From Seonamhaeicola sediminis (GTDB taxonomy: Bacteria > Bacteroidota > Bacteroidia > Flavobacteriales > Flavobacteriaceae): a stretch of DNA of 64,000 nucleotides. The translations under genes were made by a program, and so were the position numbers. Positions 51,405 to 58,808 of this stretch are shown one piece after another. Numbering within the stretch: position 1 is the first letter of the stretch; every line of letters begins with the position of its first letter. Location of the stretch: contig NZ_SMZJ02000001.1 of the NCBI RefSeq assembly GCF_004358095.2, positions 1 to 64,000 on the forward strand. The letters run 5' to 3'. Below the pieces are notes generated by a model. The model was not told where the DNA came from. It did not search any database and was given only the letters and a program-made list of their open reading frames with translations.

Positions 51405-51421
51405 TATATTTGTATATACAA
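51405..51421 (+). promoter_or_regulatory. marR -7 box with overlapping palindromic operator
   Basis: TATATTTG (51405-51412) is a TAnnTTTG box 18 nt before the ATG at 51431. TTGTATATACAA (51410-51421) is a perfect 12-bp palindrome over the expected start of transcription. MarR proteins commonly bind TTG-n-CAA dyads and repress themselves, so this is a likely autoregulatory operator. It might also control the divergent redox genes, whose start is 100 nt away. Confidence 0.55.
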
Positions 51422-51430
51422 CAGTGGTGT

Positions 51431-51895
51431 ATGGAAATTAAGAAGGTTCTTAAAGTAAATAGCAATCTTCCAGTATCTAAAGAAGTTGTAATAAACCTTA
51501 TTTATACTACTTGTATAGTAAATAGTAAGTTAAATAACGTTCTTAAACCATATGGTATTTCTTTACAACAGTTCAATGTCTTAAGGATTTTAAGAGGACA
51601 AAAGCAAGTTCCAGTCACTCTTGCTACGGTGCAAGAAAGAATGATTGCAAAAATGAGTAATACAACTAGGTTGATTGATAAGCTGGCTAAAAAAGGATAC
51701 GTTGAAAAGAAAATAAATAAAGACAACAGAAGAAAAATTGATATTTCAATAACCAATGAAGGTTTATTGTTTTTAGAAGAAATAAGTAAATTGATTGATA
51801 GCACCGAAAAAGACATTATAAGTTCTTTAACTAAAGATGAGGCTTATAATATGATTAGATTATTAGACAAGATTAGGTTAATAGCAAACAAATAA
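51431..51895 (+). CDS. MarR family transcriptional regulator
   Basis: A 154-residue winged-helix repressor. The family fold is seen in YGISLQQFNVLRILRG, the recognition region VQERMIAKMSNTTRLIDKL, and the wing KKGYVEKKINKDNRRK. It probably dimerises and responds to a small ligand or to oxidation; one Cys (TTCIVNS) lies in the N-terminal dimer part. The frame extends to TTG 51410 but that codon lies in the promoter/operator, so ATG 51431 is chosen. It is divergent from a thiol-redox cluster that it may control. Confidence 0.92.
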   Translation: MEIKKVLKVNSNLPVSKEVVINLIYTTCIVNSKLNNVLKPYGISLQQFNVLRILRGQKQVPVTLATVQERMIAKMSNTTRLIDKLAKKGYVEKKINKDNRRKIDISITNEGLLFLEEISKLIDSTEKDIISSLTKDEAYNMIRLLDKIRLIANK

Positions 51896-51922
51896 TTCTC
51901 TTAAAACTAATAATCGTACAAG

Positions 51923-51955
51923 ACTGCCATATAAATTATATGGCAGTTTTTTTTA
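51923..51955 (+). terminator. Intrinsic terminator after marR
   Basis: ACTGCCATATAA and TTATATGGCAGT form a perfect stem followed by eight Ts. Confidence 0.92.
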
Positions 51956-51972
51956 ATTTATAATCTAAACTG

Positions 51973-52003
51973 TTGTATAATTATTTTTTCATTTTTATAT
52001 TTG
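51973..52003 (+). promoter_or_regulatory. Promoter of the trp operon
   Basis: TTG (51973-51975) and TATATTTG (51996-52003) are separated by 20 nt, a good Bacteroidota promoter. The transcript would start about 52008, 15-20 nt before the leader peptide ATG. Confidence 0.7.
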
Positions 52004-52024
52004 ACCCATCAGAATTAAAAATCA

Positions 52025-52072
52025 ATGAATAATTTTTTAAACAATACTTGGTGGTGGTGCTCTCGAAACTAA
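52025..52072 (+). CDS. trpL: trp operon leader peptide
   Basis: A 15-codon open frame encoding MNNFLNNTWWWCSRN, with three consecutive Trp codons (TGG TGG TGG, 52049-52057) and a TAA stop. It lies between a good promoter and an intrinsic terminator directly upstream of trpE. This is the hallmark of ribosome-mediated attenuation: the ribosome stalls at the Trp codons when charged tRNA-Trp is scarce. The peptide itself probably has no function. No Shine-Dalgarno is seen, as is normal here. Confidence 0.88.
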   Translation: MNNFLNNTWWWCSRN

Positions 52073-52152
52073 AATTCGTGAAGTAAAATCCTAGTATATT
52101 TAAAATTTAAAAAAATATCAAAAAGGCTTGTCATTCACGACAAGCCTTTTTT
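52061..52152 (+). promoter_or_regulatory. trp attenuator: alternative pairings and intrinsic terminator
   Basis: Region 1 TCTCGAA (52061-52067, just past the Trp codons) can pair with region 2 TTCGTGA (52075-52081, one mismatch). Region 2 TCGTGAA (52076-52082) can instead pair exactly with TTCACGA (52134-52140) of the terminator. The terminator itself is AAAAGGCTTGTC/GACAAGCCTTTT with loop ATTCAC and a T-run (52120-52152). A ribosome stalled on the Trp codons would cover region 1, free region 2 and break the terminator. It ends 10 nt before trpE. Confidence 0.82.
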
Positions 52153-52161
52153 CTGTTAACA

Positions 52162-53568
52162 ATGAAAAAATTTAACCTTTTTACCCATTATAAGCGTATC
52201 CTAACAGATACCATAACACCTGTTACGGTATATTATAAGATTAGAGACAAATACCCAAATAGTATTTTACTAGAAAGTGGTGATTATCACAGAAATCATA
52301 AAAACTTTTCTTATATCTGTTTTAATCCTATTGCATCTATTAAAATTGAAAATGAAGTTATCGATAAAACATTTCCTGATGGCTCTTCAACAAAATTAGA
52401 TATCACTAACAATGTTGATGTTGTTGATGAAATCTTCAAGTTTACCAAGCAATTTGAAGTATCATCAGAAGAAAACTTTAAGTTTATCAACAACGGAATT
52501 TTTGGTTACACAGCTTATGATGCGGTACGTTATTTTGAAGATATAGAAATTGGTAAAAAGGAAAACTCGGTTGAAATACCAGATGTTTATTATGCAGTTT
52601 ATCAAAATATCATTGCTATCAATCATTTTAAAAATGAAGCTTACATATTTGCTCATTGCTTTGAAGGTATTGAAAGTAATATTGATGAGATAGATAAGTT
52701 AATTAACGTCCAAAACTTTGCTTCATTCAGTTTTAGTTCCAAAGGAGAAATAGTGTCTAACCTAACCGATAATGAATTTCTTCAACATGTAGATTACGCT
52801 AAAAAACATTGCGCCAGAGGTGATGTTTTCCAGTTGGTATTATCTAGAGGTTTTTCTCAAGAATTTACAGGTGATGATTTTAATGTTTACCGTGCTTTAA
52901 GAAGCATCAATCCATCACCCTACTTATTCTATTTTGATTATGGCAATTTTAAAATTATGGGAAGTTCACCTGAGGCTCAGTTGATAGTTAGCAATGGTTT
53001 AGCTGAAATCCACCCTATTGCAGGAACATTTAAAAGAACAGGAGACGATGAAAAGGATGCCATTTTAGCTGATAAATTGGTTAAAGACGAAAAAGAAAAT
53101 GCAGAACATGTTATGCTTGTTGATTTAGCAAGAAATGACTTAAGTCGTCATGGTAGCAATGTAAAAGTAGAAACCTACAGAGAAGTTCAGTTCTTTTCAC
53201 ATGTTATCCATTTGGTAAGTAAGGTAACAGGACAAAAACATGACACTACCTCAACTATGCAGGTGGTTGCAGATACATTTCCTGCCGGAACTTTAAGTGG
53301 CGCCCCTAAACATAGAGCTATGCAACTTATTGAACAATATGAGAAGACAAGCAGAGGTTTTTACGGCGGTGCCATTGGTTTTATGGATTTTGAAGGTAAT
53401 TTTAATCATGCCATTATGATTAGAACATTTTTAAGTAAAGATTACAAACTTAACTGGCAAGCTGGAGCAGGATTGGTATCAAAATCAAATCCTGAAAGTG
53501 AAAAACAAGAAGTGTACAACAAATTAGGAGCGTTAAACAAAGCTATTCAATTAGCAGAAGATATTTAG
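52162..53568 (+). CDS. trpE: Anthranilate synthase component I
   Basis: A 468-residue chorismate-utilising enzyme that, with TrpG, makes anthranilate. LLES at residues 36-39 is the tryptophan feedback-inhibition element. The catalytic core has PSPYLFYFD, HPIAGTFKRTG, DLARNDLSRH and TFPAGTLSGAPKHRA. It is the first structural gene of the trp operon, directly after the attenuator terminator, so expression depends on antitermination. trpG follows after 2 nt. Confidence 0.97.
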   Translation: MKKFNLFTHYKRILTDTITPVTVYYKIRDKYPNSILLESGDYHRNHKNFSYICFNPIASIKIENEVIDKTFPDGSSTKLDITNNVDVVDEIFKFTKQFEVSSEENFKFINNGIFGYTAYDAVRYFEDIEIGKKENSVEIPDVYYAVYQNIIAINHFKNEAYIFAHCFEGIESNIDEIDKLINVQNFASFSFSSKGEIVSNLTDNEFLQHVDYAKKHCARGDVFQLVLSRGFSQEFTGDDFNVYRALRSINPSPYLFYFDYGNFKIMGSSPEAQLIVSNGLAEIHPIAGTFKRTGDDEKDAILADKLVKDEKENAEHVMLVDLARNDLSRHGSNVKVETYREVQFFSHVIHLVSKVTGQKHDTTSTMQVVADTFPAGTLSGAPKHRAMQLIEQYEKTSRGFYGGAIGFMDFEGNFNHAIMIRTFLSKDYKLNWQAGAGLVSKSNPESEKQEVYNKLGALNKAIQLAEDI

Positions 53569-53570
53569 TG

Positions 53571-54137
53571 ATGAAAAGAGTTTTAGTAATAGATAATTAC
53601 GATAGTTTTACATATAATCTAGTTCATTATTTAGAGGATTTAAACTGTGATGTAACGGTTTACAGAAATGATAAATTAGAATTGGAAGATGTAGAACCTT
53701 TTGATAAAATAGTATTATCTCCAGGACCAGGTATACCAGATGAAGCAGGTTTGTTGAAAGCCATTATAGAAAAATATGCACCAACTAAAAGTATTTTAGG
53801 CGTTTGTTTAGGCCAACAAGCTATTGGTGAAGTATTTGGAGGTACTTTAGTAAACCTTGATGAAGTTTACCATGGTGTAGCCACCAAAGTTGAAATATGT
53901 GTAGATGATGAACCTATTTTTAAAAATCTAGACAAAGAAATTCTGGTTGGTCGTTATCACTCTTGGGTTGTTAATGCTGCTCTACCTGAAAGTCTAGAAG
54001 CCACATCTTTTGATCACAACGGACAAGTAATGTCTTTAAGACACAAACTATATGATGTAAAAGGTGTTCAATATCACCCCGAATCTGTTTTAACACCAGA
54101 CGGAAAGAAAATATTAGAAAATTGGGTTAATAGTTAG
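53571..54137 (+). CDS. trpG: Anthranilate synthase component II (glutamine amidotransferase)
   Basis: A 188-residue class I amidotransferase. The catalytic triad is visible: Cys in GVCLGQQAIGE, and His/Glu in VQYHPESVLTPDG. NYDSFTYNLVHYLE marks the N-terminus. A GTG precedes the ATG; the ATG at 53571 is used. It supplies ammonia to TrpE; some TrpG proteins also serve p-aminobenzoate synthesis, which this could do too. Confidence 0.96.
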   Translation: MKRVLVIDNYDSFTYNLVHYLEDLNCDVTVYRNDKLELEDVEPFDKIVLSPGPGIPDEAGLLKAIIEKYAPTKSILGVCLGQQAIGEVFGGTLVNLDEVYHGVATKVEICVDDEPIFKNLDKEILVGRYHSWVVNAALPESLEATSFDHNGQVMSLRHKLYDVKGVQYHPESVLTPDGKKILENWVNS

Positions 54138-54161
54138 CTGAAGAAAGTTTAAATAGTTTGA

Positions 54162-54301
54162 ATGAAAAATAAACTTACAGAAAGTCAACTCCCAATTCAA
54201 TTCGTAGAATTGATAGCCAAGGCGAAGAATAGATGAAGAAAAGCTCCGAAATCAGGAGAACAAAGTTAGATTTTGACAAGCAAAAAATGAATGGGAAGTA
54301 A
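54162..54301. other. Insertion-like sequence between trpG and trpD
   Basis: The 211-nt spacer between trpG and trpD is unlike the tight joins elsewhere in the operon. It starts with a 24-codon frame (54162-54236, ending IAKAKNR). It contains TCAATTC/GAATTGA, a small palindrome, and has imperfect inverted ends ACTCCCAATTCA (from about 54187) and TGAATGGGAAGT (to about 54301). This suggests a small mobile or repeated element. A REP-like palindrome follows. Confidence 0.4.
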
Positions 54302-54320
54302 TAAAGTGTAATTTAAAATA

Positions 54321-54345
54321 GATTCCTGTCTTTACAGGAATAACA
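54321..54345. repeat. REP-like palindrome directly before trpD
   Basis: GATTCCTGTCTTTACAGGAA followed by TAACA is a variant of the family, with compensating changes in both arms (CCTGT/ACAGG). The trpD ATG is 4 nt beyond it, so the hairpin lies in the ribosome-landing region of trpD mRNA. Confidence 0.75.
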
Positions 54346-54348
54346 AGA

Positions 54349-55341
54349 ATGAAAGATATACTTAATAGATTAATAAACCATGAGACCATCTCTACAGAGG
54401 AGGCTAAACAGGTTATTTTCAACATATCAAATGATATGTGTAACCCAAGTCAAATTGCATGCTTCCTTTCTGTTTACATGATGCGCAGTATTACTATTGA
54501 GGAATTGCAAGGTTTCAGGGATGCCCTTTTGGAGTTGTGTGTTGCTGTTGACTTGAAAGACTTTAATGCTATTGATATTGTTGGAACTGGTGGAGACGGA
54601 AAAAATACATTCAACATATCTACTTTGTCCTCATTCATTACCGCAGGAGCTGGCGTTAACGTCTCAAAACATGGAAATTACGGAGTATCTTCAACATCGG
54701 GTTCATCTAATGTGATGGAAAAATTGGGTGTAAAGTTTTCAAATGATGAAGATTTTTTAAAGCGTTGTTTAGACAAAGCTGGCATATGTATTTTACACGC
54801 GCCGTTATTTCACCCCGCTATGAAGAATGTAGCCCCAATAAGAAGAGAATTAGGCGTTAAAACTTTTTTCAATATGCTTGGCCCCATGGTAAACCCTTCA
54901 TTTCCAAAAAGCCAATCACTTGGTGTTTTTAATTTAGAAGTATTACGCTTGTATAGCTTTCTATATCAAAATACTAACAAAAATTACAGTATTGTATATG
55001 CATTAGATGGCTACGATGAAATCTCATTAACTGGTGAAGCTAAAATAGTTTCTAATAATTCAGAAAAACTATTTTCTCCTGAAGACTTAGGACTTAACAA
55101 AATAAAACAAGAAGCCATCTATGGCGGTGACACCATTGAAGATGCAGCCAAAATTTTTATGGATATTATTAGTGGTAACGGAACCCAGGCTCAGAACAAT
55201 GTAGTTTGTGCCAATGCTGGTTTAGCTATTGCAACATCTAAGCAAATATCTCACAAAGAAGGATTTGAAATGGCCAAAGAATCCTTATTCTCTGGTAAAG
55301 CAAAACAAAGTTTAGACACCTTAATTAAATTGAGTAAATGA
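54349..55341 (+). CDS. trpD: Anthranilate phosphoribosyltransferase
   Basis: A 330-residue enzyme that adds the PRPP-derived ribose phosphate to anthranilate. Motifs are GTGGDGKNTFNIST (PRPP loop), KHGNYGVSSTSGSSNVME, and FHPAMKNVAPIRRELG. It is separated from trpG by a 211-nt spacer containing repeats. Its stop overlaps the trpC ATG as ATGA. Confidence 0.96.
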   Translation: MKDILNRLINHETISTEEAKQVIFNISNDMCNPSQIACFLSVYMMRSITIEELQGFRDALLELCVAVDLKDFNAIDIVGTGGDGKNTFNISTLSSFITAGAGVNVSKHGNYGVSSTSGSSNVMEKLGVKFSNDEDFLKRCLDKAGICILHAPLFHPAMKNVAPIRRELGVKTFFNMLGPMVNPSFPKSQSLGVFNLEVLRLYSFLYQNTNKNYSIVYALDGYDEISLTGEAKIVSNNSEKLFSPEDLGLNKIKQEAIYGGDTIEDAAKIFMDIISGNGTQAQNNVVCANAGLAIATSKQISHKEGFEMAKESLFSGKAKQSLDTLIKLSK

Positions 55342-56123
55342 ATATTTTAGATAAAATTGTATTTGATAAACGCAAAGAAGTTGATTTAAGAAAAGGGTTA
55401 ATACCCACTTCTCAATTGGAGCAATCAATTTTATTTTCAAGAGAAACAGTATCTCTAGCAGAAAAATTAAAAAATAGTAAATCTGGAATTATAGCAGAGC
55501 ATAAAAGACGCTCCCCTTCAAAATCTGTAATAAACAACAACTTAAATACCCAAGATGTTGCCGCCGGTTATGAAAATGCTGGGGTCTGTGGCATGTCTGT
55601 TTTAACAGACGGAAAATATTTTGGAGGTTCTTTAGATGATTTATTGACTGCTCGTGCTAGTTGTAATTTGCCTTTGCTTAGAAAGGAGTTCATTATTGAT
55701 GAATATCAAATTCTTGAAGCTAAGGCTTATGGAGCTGATGTTATTTTATTAATTGCTGCTATTCTAACTAGAGAAGAAATAAAGCAATTTTCAGAATTTG
55801 CACAAAACTTAAACCTTAATGTTCTTTTAGAGGTTCATAACGAAGAAGAATTACATAAATCTATCATGCCAAGTTTAGATATGTTAGGTGTGAACAATAG
55901 AAATCTCAAGACTTTTGAGGTTAGTTTGGAAACCAGCAAATCATTAAGCAGCATAATTCCAGATGACTTCGTTAAAGTATCAGAAAGCGGTATTAGTAAT
56001 ATAGATGCCATTAAAGAATTACAACCCTATGGATACAAAGGTTTTTTAATTGGAGAAAACTTCATGAAAACAGATAACCCAGGTGCAAGCGCCAAAAAAT
56101 TTATAAAAGAATTAGAGCTATGA
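55338..56123 (+). CDS. trpC: Indole-3-glycerol phosphate synthase
   Basis: A 261-residue (beta/alpha)8 barrel that closes the indole ring. IIAEHKRRSPSKSVI, LLRKEFIIDEYQI, LLEVHNEEELH and GVNNRNLKTFEV carry the catalytic Lys and Glu residues of the family. It starts within the trpD stop and its own stop overlaps the trpFB start, again as ATGA, so the three are tightly coupled. Confidence 0.97.
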   Translation: MNILDKIVFDKRKEVDLRKGLIPTSQLEQSILFSRETVSLAEKLKNSKSGIIAEHKRRSPSKSVINNNLNTQDVAAGYENAGVCGMSVLTDGKYFGGSLDDLLTARASCNLPLLRKEFIIDEYQILEAKAYGADVILLIAAILTREEIKQFSEFAQNLNLNVLLEVHNEEELHKSIMPSLDMLGVNNRNLKTFEVSLETSKSLSSIIPDDFVKVSESGISNIDAIKELQPYGYKGFLIGENFMKTDNPGASAKKFIKELEL

Positions 56124-57946
56124 AAATAAAGGTTTGTGGAATGAAATATCAAGATAATATTGAGCAAGTTGCTGCACTGCAACCAGATTATCTTGGTTTT
56201 ATTTTTTATGATAAAACACCACGGCATTTTGATACTGAAATTCCTGAAATTTCCAATGATATTAAAAAAACGGGGGTTTTTGTTAATGAGGATCTAAATA
56301 CGGTTATTCAAAAAATAAACGAATTCAATTTACAAGCTGTTCAACTACATGGTGAAGAAGCTCCTTTCTACTGCAATATGCTTAGAACCACAACACTTCT
56401 AAAAAAGCCTATAGAAGTTATAAAAGTATTTTCAGTAATGGATGGTTTCAATTTTAAGGTATTGAATGAATATGAAGACGTTTGTGATTACTATCTGTTT
56501 GATACCAAAGGAAAACTTCCCGGTGGTAATGGCTATGCTTTTGATTGGAGTCTTTTAAATGATTACCCATCAACAAAACCTTTCTTTTTAAGTGGAGGTA
56601 TTGGCATAGACCAAATAAATGATATTAAGAAGTTCAAGGAAAGTGAAGTTTCAAAATATTGCTACGCTTTAGATGTAAATAGTAAATTTGAATTAGAACC
56701 TGGACTTAAAAATGTAGGAGTTTTAAGAGAGTTTATAAATAAACTTAGTAATAACAAAGAAATGCAAAAATATAACGTAGACGAAAGAGGGTATTACGGT
56801 GATTTTGGTGGAGCATTTATCCCCGAAATGTTATACCCAAATGTAGAAGAATTAAGGGAAAACTACCTTAAGGTCATGGCTGAACCTAAATTTAAAAAAG
56901 AGTTTGACCAACTTTTAAAAGACTATGTAGGTAGACCGTCACCTTTATACTTTGCCAAAAGACTTTCGGAAAAATATAACACAAAAATATACCTTAAGCG
57001 AGAGGATTTAAATCATACAGGAGCTCATAAAATTAATAATACCATTGGGCAAATATTGATGGCAAAACGTTTAGGAAAGAACAGAATTATTGCCGAAACG
57101 GGAGCAGGACAACATGGTGTTGCTACGGCTACCGTTTGTGCTTTAATGGGGCTGGAGTGCATTGTATATATGGGTGAAATTGACATTGCTCGTCAAGCAC
57201 CCAATGTAGCTAGAATGAAAATGTTAGGCGCTAAAGTTATTCCTGCGTTGTCAGGAAGTCGTACTTTAAAAGATGCTACCAATGAAGCTATTCGCGATTG
57301 GATTAACAACCCTGTAAATACACACTATATTATTGGATCTGCTATCGGGCCACACCCCTATCCGGATATGGTAACAAGATTTCAATCGGTGATTTCAGAA
57401 GAAATAAAATGGCAATTAAAAGAACATGAAGGTAGAGAAAACCCAGATTATGTTGCTGCTTGTATTGGCGGTGGTAGTAATGCAGCAGGAACCTATTATC
57501 ATTTTCTTCATGAAGAAGATGTAAAAATTATTGCGGTTGAAGCGGCTGGTCTTGGTGTTGACTCAGGTGAAAGTGCCGCTACTTCTGTTTTAGGTAAAGA
57601 AGGTATCATTCACGGATGTAAAACCTTATTAATGCAAACAGCCGATGGTCAAATTACAGAACCCTATTCTATTTCGGCTGGATTAGATTACCCTGGAGTA
57701 GGCCCCATGCATGCGCATTTAGCCAAAACAGGACGTGCTGAATTTATGTCTATTACGGATGATGAAGCTATGAAAGCAGGGTTAGAATTGTGCGAATTGG
57801 AAGGTATTATTCCAGCCATTGAAACTTCACATGCCCTAGCTATTTTTAAACAAAAACAGTTTAAACCAAACGATGTCATTGTGATGAGCCTTTCTGGTCG
57901 TGGTGATAAAGATTTACAGAATTATATTGATTATTTTAAAATTTAA
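56120..57946 (+). CDS. trpFB: Fused phosphoribosylanthranilate isomerase / tryptophan synthase beta chain
   Basis: A 608-residue single frame joining TrpF (about 1-210) and TrpB (about 215-608). TrpF has catalytic Cys6 in KVCGMK and the DTKGKLPGGNG loop. TrpB has the PLP lysine in HTGAHKINNT (about Lys304), GGGSNAAG and the C-terminal SGRGDKD. The join, LSNNKEMQKYN, has only a few linker residues before the usual TrpB Met (ATG 56762). In most relatives I know of, these are two genes. A frame change near the end of trpF, real or a sequencing artefact, could have made the fusion; the internal ATG could still yield free TrpB. Confidence 0.9.
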   Translation: MKIKVCGMKYQDNIEQVAALQPDYLGFIFYDKTPRHFDTEIPEISNDIKKTGVFVNEDLNTVIQKINEFNLQAVQLHGEEAPFYCNMLRTTTLLKKPIEVIKVFSVMDGFNFKVLNEYEDVCDYYLFDTKGKLPGGNGYAFDWSLLNDYPSTKPFFLSGGIGIDQINDIKKFKESEVSKYCYALDVNSKFELEPGLKNVGVLREFINKLSNNKEMQKYNVDERGYYGDFGGAFIPEMLYPNVEELRENYLKVMAEPKFKKEFDQLLKDYVGRPSPLYFAKRLSEKYNTKIYLKREDLNHTGAHKINNTIGQILMAKRLGKNRIIAETGAGQHGVATATVCALMGLECIVYMGEIDIARQAPNVARMKMLGAKVIPALSGSRTLKDATNEAIRDWINNPVNTHYIIGSAIGPHPYPDMVTRFQSVISEEIKWQLKEHEGRENPDYVAACIGGGSNAAGTYYHFLHEEDVKIIAVEAAGLGVDSGESAATSVLGKEGIIHGCKTLLMQTADGQITEPYSISAGLDYPGVGPMHAHLAKTGRAEFMSITDDEAMKAGLELCELEGIIPAIETSHALAIFKQKQFKPNDVIVMSLSGRGDKDLQNYIDYFKI

Positions 57947-57958
57947 GTGACCGTTAGC

Positions 57959-57984
57959 TGTCATTCCGCACTTGATGCGGAATC
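57959..57984. repeat. REP-like palindrome, inverted orientation
   Basis: ATTCCGCACTTGATGCGGAAT is a palindrome (ATTCCGCA/TGCGGAAT), preceded by TGTC. It is the same family as at 58013 but in the opposite orientation, giving a facing pair between trpFB and trpA. Confidence 0.75.
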
Positions 57985-58012
57985 CACTAAAAACTAAGTA
58001 TAACTAAAAATA

Positions 58013-58037
58013 GATTCCTGCCTTCGCAGGAATGACA
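58013..58037. repeat. REP-like palindrome overlapping the trpA upstream ATG
   Basis: GATTCCTGCCTTCGCAGGAA followed by TGACA is the consensus member of this family in the window. The ATG at 58032 is part of the repeat (GGAATGACA), which is why the trpA start is placed 12 nt further on. Confidence 0.8.
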
Positions 58038-58043
58038 GAAAAA

Positions 58044-58808
58044 ATGAATCGCATTCAAGAAAAGTTAAAGGAAGACAAAAAACTTCTTTCTATATATTTT
58101 ACGGCGGGATATCCTAATTTAGATGATACTGTTAAAATTATTCAAGAGTTAGAGAATAATGGTGTAGACATGATTGAAATTGGCCTGCCCTTTAGTGACC
58201 CCTTAGCAGATGGTCCAACCATACAGGATAGCTCAACAAAGGCTTTAAAAAATGGCATGACTACCGAAGTTCTTTTTAATCAGTTAAGAAATATCAGAGA
58301 AACGGTTAATATCCCTTTAATTATTATGGGGTATTTCAATCCTATGCTACAATATGGTGTTGAAGATTTTTGTAAAAAATGTCAGGATATAGGCATTGAT
58401 GGCTTAATTATCCCAGACTTACCTGTAGATGTTTATCATGAAGAATACAAAGCAATATTTGACAGCTACGGACTTATAAACGTATTTTTAATAACACCAC
58501 AAACTAGTGATGAGCGAATCAAATACATCGATTCAGTTTCAGACGGTTTTATTTATATGGTAAGTAGCGCTAGTACAACCGGTGCAAAATCTGGTTTTGG
58601 TGAGGAACAAAGTGAATATTTCAAGCGTATTAATGATTTAAATTTGAAAAACCCGCAAATTGTTGGTTTCGGAATTAGTAACAATAGTACTTTTAAAGTA
58701 GCAACCACATACGCCAAGGGAGCTATTATTGGTAGTGCTTTTGTTAAACATGTTACCAATGAAGGCATTGAAACCATCCCCAATTTTGTTAATTCAATTT
58801 TAAAATAG
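58044..58808 (+). CDS. trpA: Tryptophan synthase alpha chain
   Basis: A 254-residue TIM barrel that cleaves indole-3-glycerol phosphate and passes indole to TrpB. The catalytic Glu is in MIEIGLPFSDPLADGP and the catalytic Asp in GLIIPDLPVDVY; the phosphate loop SSASTTGAKSGF is present. The open frame includes an ATG at 58032, but that codon belongs to a repeat. ATG 58044 (MNRIQEKLKEDKKLL) matches relatives. It is the last trp gene; a DUF805 gene follows after 46 nt. Confidence 0.96.
   Translation: MNRIQEKLKEDKKLLSIYFTAGYPNLDDTVKIIQELENNGVDMIEIGLPFSDPLADGPTIQDSSTKALKNGMTTEVLFNQLRNIRETVNIPLIIMGYFNPMLQYGVEDFCKKCQDIGIDGLIIPDLPVDVYHEEYKAIFDSYGLINVFLITPQTSDERIKYIDSVSDGFIYMVSSASTTGAKSGFGEEQSEYFKRINDLNLKNPQIVGFGISNNSTFKVATTYAKGAIIGSAFVKHVTNEGIETIPNFVNSILK

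Follow-up and report, generated by a model that had tools for sequence, protein, structure and literature searches.

A probable ribosome-mediated transcription attenuator of the RF01692 family before the trp operon of Seonamhaeicola sediminis

The trp operon and its leader

The window (the whole stretch of DNA analysed, 64,000 nucleotides of Seonamhaeicola sediminis, contig NZ_SMZJ02000001.1) carries a trpEGDCFBA operon on the forward strand. The product of the first gene, trpE, is 95% identical to TrpE of Seonamhaeicola aphaedonensis; its best NCBIfam match is TIGR00564 (trpE_most) at 421.8 bits, under the curated cut-off of 517.7. The genes trpF and trpB form a single 608-aa frame (56120-57946), whose top hit in NCBIfam is the model NF010376 for bifunctional TrpF/TrpB (780.3 bits; cut-off 819). 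Just upstream of the trp leader, on the same strand, lies a gene for a MarR-family regulator (51410-51895). It is followed by a terminator-like site (51920-51950), an indication that transcription of the trp operon depends on the operon's own promoter. The elements of the leader and the operon are as follows.

51973..51975 (+): -33 TTG of a Bacteroidota-type promoter, with a 20-nt spacer to the -7 box
51996..52003 (+): -7 box, TATATTTG (TAnnTTTG)
52025..52072 (+): leader peptide MNNFLNNTWWWCSRN, 15 codons and stop (ATG at 52025, TAA at 52070-52072)
52044..52051 (+): outer stem of the anti-antiterminator, 5' side, at the codons around Asn-Thr-Trp; pairs with 52090-52097 in the Rfam structure and in the fold
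52049..52057 (+): three tandem Trp codons, TGGTGGTGG, also present in relatives
52058..52067 (+): region 1 (UGCUC.CGAA), pairs with region 2
52075..52082 (+): region 2 (TTCGTGAA; as RNA UUCGUGAA), whose partner is region 1 or region 3
52090..52097 (+): outer stem, 3' side (CCUAGUAU), in the Rfam structure and in the fold
52120..52132 (+): terminator, 5' arm
52134..52140 (+): region 3 (UUCACGA; as DNA TTCACGA), the terminator loop together with 2 nt at the start of the 3' arm; pairs with region 2 as the antiterminator
52139..52151 (+): terminator, 3' arm, then a short T run; the hairpin 52120-52151 has 13 pairs
52162..53568 (+): trpE, first gene of the operon
53568..58808 (+): trpG, trpD, trpC, trpF-trpB and trpA

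The promoter, the 15-codon leader with Trp-Trp-Trp, the alternative pairings, the terminator and the trpE ATG had all been recognized in the initial annotation and were found where it had placed them. The existence of its region 1 is borne out, with limits better set at 52058-52067 than at 52061-52067; the outer stem 52044-52051:52090-52097 also pairs.

The -33 element follows the Bacteroidota promoter consensus. The promoter is of this type, not of the sigma-70 consensus, and a scan for sigma-70-type promoters did not list it. The TAnnTTTG promoter motif is quoted in a passage of PMC6414381. Among 2699 short ORFs in the window (8-40 aa, starting with ATG, TTG or GTG, both strands), Trp-Trp-Trp is held by one, the leader. 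The fold of the RNA 52005-52155 has an energy of -32.8 kcal/mol (z -4.57), a value reached by none of 200 shuffled sequences. Region 1 and region 2 pair at -4.6 kcal/mol as an inner stem and at -12.0 kcal/mol with the outer stem included. The overlap between region 3 and the 3' arm of the terminator is only 2 nt (52139-52140).

Membership in a known RNA family

The leader matches Rfam family RF01692 ("Bacteroid-trp") at window positions 52005-52132 on the forward strand with 64.4 bits, over the gathering cut-off of 49, and the match (cmscan) spans the model from position 1 to 131 of 131. A short ORF with tandem Trp codons lies inside it, and it stands upstream of Trp biosynthesis genes of a Bacteroidota. 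When 4227 Rfam families were scanned, only RF01692 and tRNA attained their cut-offs in the window. RF00513, the proteobacterial Trp_leader, is absent among the six Rfam matches in the window and among the 14 matches at E<=1 in 51900-52250. The 13 other matches at E<=1 (GibS, Phe_leader, Thr_leader and others) all lie under their own cut-offs and were set aside as chance.

Position 131, the last of the RF01692 model, lies in the 5' arm of the terminator, and the only fold that the model depicts is region 1:2. As the Rfam alignment stops there, the antiterminator, made of region 2 and the terminator loop, falls outside the model, as does the 3' arm of the terminator. An intrinsic terminator (52120-52151, -18.3 kcal/mol, covarying) precedes the first structural gene, as in transcription attenuators generally. 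A competing antiterminator is indicated by sequence, the 2-nt overlap, spacing and relatives; it would be freed by a stalled ribosome.

Leaders of relatives

The starting sample comprised 116 RF01692 loci, including the window, of which 113 passed a leader filter (ATG start and Trp-Trp). The three that were dropped (L081, L091, L100) have leader ORFs that start with TTG and hold Trp-Trp-Trp. The terminators of L048, L104, L105 and L111 were missed by the same leader/terminator script. Nine loci from genomes without an RF01692 match (L125, L127 and L128 not among them) bring the alignment to 122 rows, a sample that leans toward high-scoring RF01692 matches.

The Trp run is Trp-Trp-Trp in 115 of the 122 leaders and Trp-Trp in seven; at least two Trp codons are found in every row partly by choice, because the filter demanded them and the RF01692 model itself holds Trp codons. 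Leader peptides are 13-24 aa long and vary around the run. In 121/122 leaders the motif TAnnTTTG occurs no more than 60 nt before the leader start; in 24 of these 121 it begins just 12-14 nt before the ATG, and such leaders may be nearly leaderless. The initial annotation was right that translation here starts without a Shine-Dalgarno, a feature that is normal in this group (a Shine-Dalgarno-like string occurs in 1/122 leaders). The core of region 2 was found in 120 leaders, and in 110 of them it begins 18 or 19 nt past the Trp codons.

At E<=0.01, 194 of the 249 family genomes carry RF01692, 156 of them with a score over the cut-off; in a phylum sample of 296 genomes the corresponding numbers are 35 and 28. 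Twenty family genomes, drawn from the 55 without a match, were searched, and 15 have trpE. Two of these loci (L119, L132) end at a contig end, leaving 13 for the leader count; 12 of the 13, including L125, L127 and L128, have both a Trp leader and a terminator-like hairpin. The remaining trpE locus, L131, has no leader.

Given that the RF01692 model holds Trp codons, loci picked by TrpE alone are the independent evidence for Trp runs. A Trp-Trp-Trp leader lies no more than 320 nt upstream of trpE in 71 of 80 such loci and farther upstream in eight of the other nine, making 79/80 near relatives; the set is not fully separate from the alignment, 18 of its 80 leaders recurring without change among the 122 rows. 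L193 has no leader within 700 nt before trpE and has a 121-aa ORF there. An ORF of 98-104 aa lies between attenuator and trpE in L134, L140, L161, L162, L166, L167 and L173; that of L140, the sole one tested, encodes a GIY-YIG domain (Pfam PF01541, 2.4e-16). In L203 the leader is farther upstream and no ORF longer than 50 aa intervenes.

Conservation of the pairings

Across the 122 leaders, 99.3% of cells are paired in the terminator and 10 of its 13 pairs are changed on both sides. For the region 2:3 helix, 85.2% of cells pair, compared with 19-52% for partners slid along the sequence. Standard base pairs occupy its six core positions in 116-120 of 122 rows and its two end positions in 55/122 and 62/114. 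Because this core hardly varies, shuffled partners still pair in 83.7% of cells. Changes on both sides are found in five of the eight pairs, against a shuffled mean of 1.7 and against three to four in the slid versions. The duplex has a mean energy of -10.25 kcal/mol vs -4.5 for shuffles (109 leaders). With the 3' arm held open in the fold, at least five bases of the loop or top of the arm pair upstream in 106 of 109 leaders.

The compensated changes in region 2:3 rest on a minority of divergent rows. In L036 and L109 (the latter with GUCGCAAU:AUUGCGAC) the own pairing ranks 0-1 of 108. Region 2 fits its own loop better than all 109 others in L121, L124 (GCGAUGA:UCAUCGC), L129 (GCGAG:CUCGC) and L130 (GGAUUCAG:CUGAAUCC), and L125 has the compensated pair UCGCGA:UCGCGA. 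Other rows count against the pairing: region 2 of L012, L028, L055, L069, L118 and L122 prefers most other species' loops over its own, and that of L120 pairs at least as well with 59 of 109 foreign loops. The loops of L031, L052 and L056 pair equally or better with the region 2 of many other species, and the loop of L129 does so with 69 of 109 others. In L054 the antiterminator fold contains no region 2:3 pairing.

The region 1:2 stem lies at or below 5% of its own shuffles in 80/120 leaders, and the outer stem beats its own shuffles at the 5% level in only 49/122. A consensus fold of the 122 rows by RNAalifold recovers the terminator only (10 pairs), likely because the register of region 1:2 shifts between builds of the leader and because region 2:3 crosses the terminator.

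Energetics and a proposed switch

The antiterminator of the window has -10.3 kcal/mol and its terminator -18.3 kcal/mol, a difference of 8 kcal/mol that favors the terminator at equilibrium. The mean gap in 109 leaders is 5.6 kcal/mol. The same program gives -15.6 and -20.3 kcal/mol for E. coli. The antiterminator of the window is thus weaker than that of E. coli both absolutely and relative to its own terminator, and the concern raised earlier about a short antiterminator of seven pairs was fair. Being weaker than the terminator, it would have to act by being first, that is, kinetically. In a step-wise fold that places a ribosome on the Trp codons and leaves the RNA free from 52068 onward, transcripts ending at 52138-52144 fold best as region 2:3; from 52146 on the terminator is preferred.

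With ample Trp-tRNA, the ribosome would reach the stop codon at 52070, where it would cover region 1 as well as region 2, and the terminator 52120-52151 would form. With scarce Trp-tRNA, it would stall on UGGUGGUGG and cover region 1, leaving region 2 (52075-52082) free; region 3 (52134-52140), once made, would pair with it and hold the terminator loop, and the polymerase would be past the U tract by the time the more stable hairpin could displace region 2:3. If the leader were not translated, region 1:2 would form and then the terminator. The behavior of the ribosome, the kinetic trap and the dependence on Trp are what we infer from the parts and their conservation. By geometry, the full terminator and the full region 2:3 helix could scarcely exist side by side as a pseudoknot, since there would be no nucleotide over to bridge the helix.

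Two possible builds of the leader

It is possible, as a tentative generalization, that the trp attenuators of the Bacteroidota work by a loop-capture antiterminator, in which region 2 takes the loop and only about 2-3 bases of the arm and acts purely kinetically, and that two builds of it occur in the family. One has a G before UCGUGA (47/122 leaders) and a mean energy gap of 3.7 kcal/mol; the other, to which the window belongs, has a T there (51/122 leaders) and a gap of 6.8 kcal/mol (47 scored). A second helix of at least five pairs to the 5' arm of the terminator is possible in 25 of the 47 G leaders vs about 13% of shuffles, and in five of 63 non-G leaders vs about 11% of shuffles; in the T build such a helix is rare.

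The stop codon falls inside the region 2 core in 41/47 G leaders. Among the 51 T leaders it lies before the core in 23, inside it in 19 and after it in nine. A ribosome at a stop before or inside the core would cover region 2, given the general size of its footprint; where the stop lies after the core, ribosomes would run through region 2.

Alternative explanations

The leader RNA or its Trp-rich peptide might also regulate in trans, a function that would keep the sequence nearly invariant beside attenuation. Trans-acting trp leader RNAs exist in Proteobacteria, and UCGUGA, GGCUUGUC and UCACGACA are at least 90% conserved per column in the 122 leaders, perhaps beyond the needs of pairing. Shared partners could explain the invariance as well, however, since region 2 must fit both region 1 and region 3, and region 3 must fit region 2 and partly the 5' arm; the peptides, variable in length and in sequence around the Trp run, also speak against such a role, which we consider unlikely. 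A second alternative holds that the terminator merely lowers trp expression, the antiterminator being too weak and control by Trp slight or absent in this species. Its appeal lies in the energy gap described above, which exceeds that of E. coli, but region 2:3 and its spacing are kept in relatives and in some the pairing is restored by compensated changes. A pairing of no use would be expected to decay, and the alternative has a slim chance. A structured leader and a terminator ahead of a biosynthetic operon would suit a ligand- or tRNA-binding element (a T-box, a TRAP target or a riboswitch) in place of control by translation; the outcome of the Rfam scan, and the in-frame Trp runs that recur in loci picked by TrpE alone, make such an element highly improbable.

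Ribosome-mediated transcription attenuation of the trp operon, by a member of RF01692, remains the best reading of the element, with a probability of about 0.92 on the sequence evidence. It had been put forward in the initial annotation together with an alignment check, which was run here and finds the Trp codons and the pairings kept in relatives.

Comparison with known systems

Three further leaders with terminator-like hairpins were seen on other contigs of the same genome: a His-rich one, MTFIQTHHHFHICSQAK (HHHFH), ahead of hisG (L213); a Phe/Tyr-rich one, MRTTVVYTYFSFYYFFFS (YFSFYYFFF), ahead of a prephenate dehydratase gene (L214); and a Val/Ile-rich one, MKNLCSNIVPVIVIVIIS (VPVIVIVII), ahead of ilvD (L215). 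Complementarity between the stretch after the codons and the hairpin goes beyond shuffles for his (3/500 as low) and ilv (2/500), and not for phe (80/500). The exact motif TAnnTTTG is absent from the 60 nt before the his, phe and ilv leaders. To judge from their sequences, these leaders likely make up a set of amino-acid attenuators.

The novelty implied for the trp element in the initial annotation does not hold. The kind is already known, because RF01692 was listed as Bacteroid-trp in 2010 (Weinberg et al., Table 1; PMC2864571), the trp leader of Flavobacterium psychrophilum was discussed in 2019 as a likely Trp attenuator (PMC6414381), and a 2021 transcriptome paper reports signs of attenuation by leader peptides ahead of amino-acid operons (PMC9723704). 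The available passages of the latter describe five Rfam-predicted leaders as expressed and do not name the trp leader. The F. psychrophilum leader belongs to the same RNA family and precedes the same operon in a different genus; the passages available from PMC6414381 and PMC9723704 do not contain the pairing of region 2 with the loop. More widely, no description of this pairing was met in the accessible portions of the open-licence main texts PMC2864571, PMC6414381, PMC9723704, PMC4833913 and PMC2395257.

The element is an ordinary representative of a known leader family, though one with good support, alike to other members in its full-length match over the cut-off, its phylum, its position before trp genes and its leader with Trp codons. 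What the analysis contributes is that the antiterminator was tested across relatives and that the leader was found beyond the reach of the Rfam model. It supplies the terminator and the antiterminator, the half that had been missing from a catalogued RNA family, and finds the switch nearly always present in the trpE loci examined, even in genomes missed by the model. It also offers a clean test of the shortest antiterminator that still functions with coupled ribosome and polymerase, in a phylum that initiates translation without a Shine-Dalgarno.

The E. coli trpL leader (L057) resembles the element in its tandem Trp codons, its competing pairings, its terminator before trpE and an antiterminator weaker than the terminator. 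It differs in being of the RF00513 type, which is unmatched here, and in the strength of its antiterminator (-15.6 vs -10.3 kcal/mol). The two also differ in what the antiterminator takes: region 3 of E. coli is the 5' arm of the terminator, whereas that of the window is the loop and 2 nt of the 3' arm.
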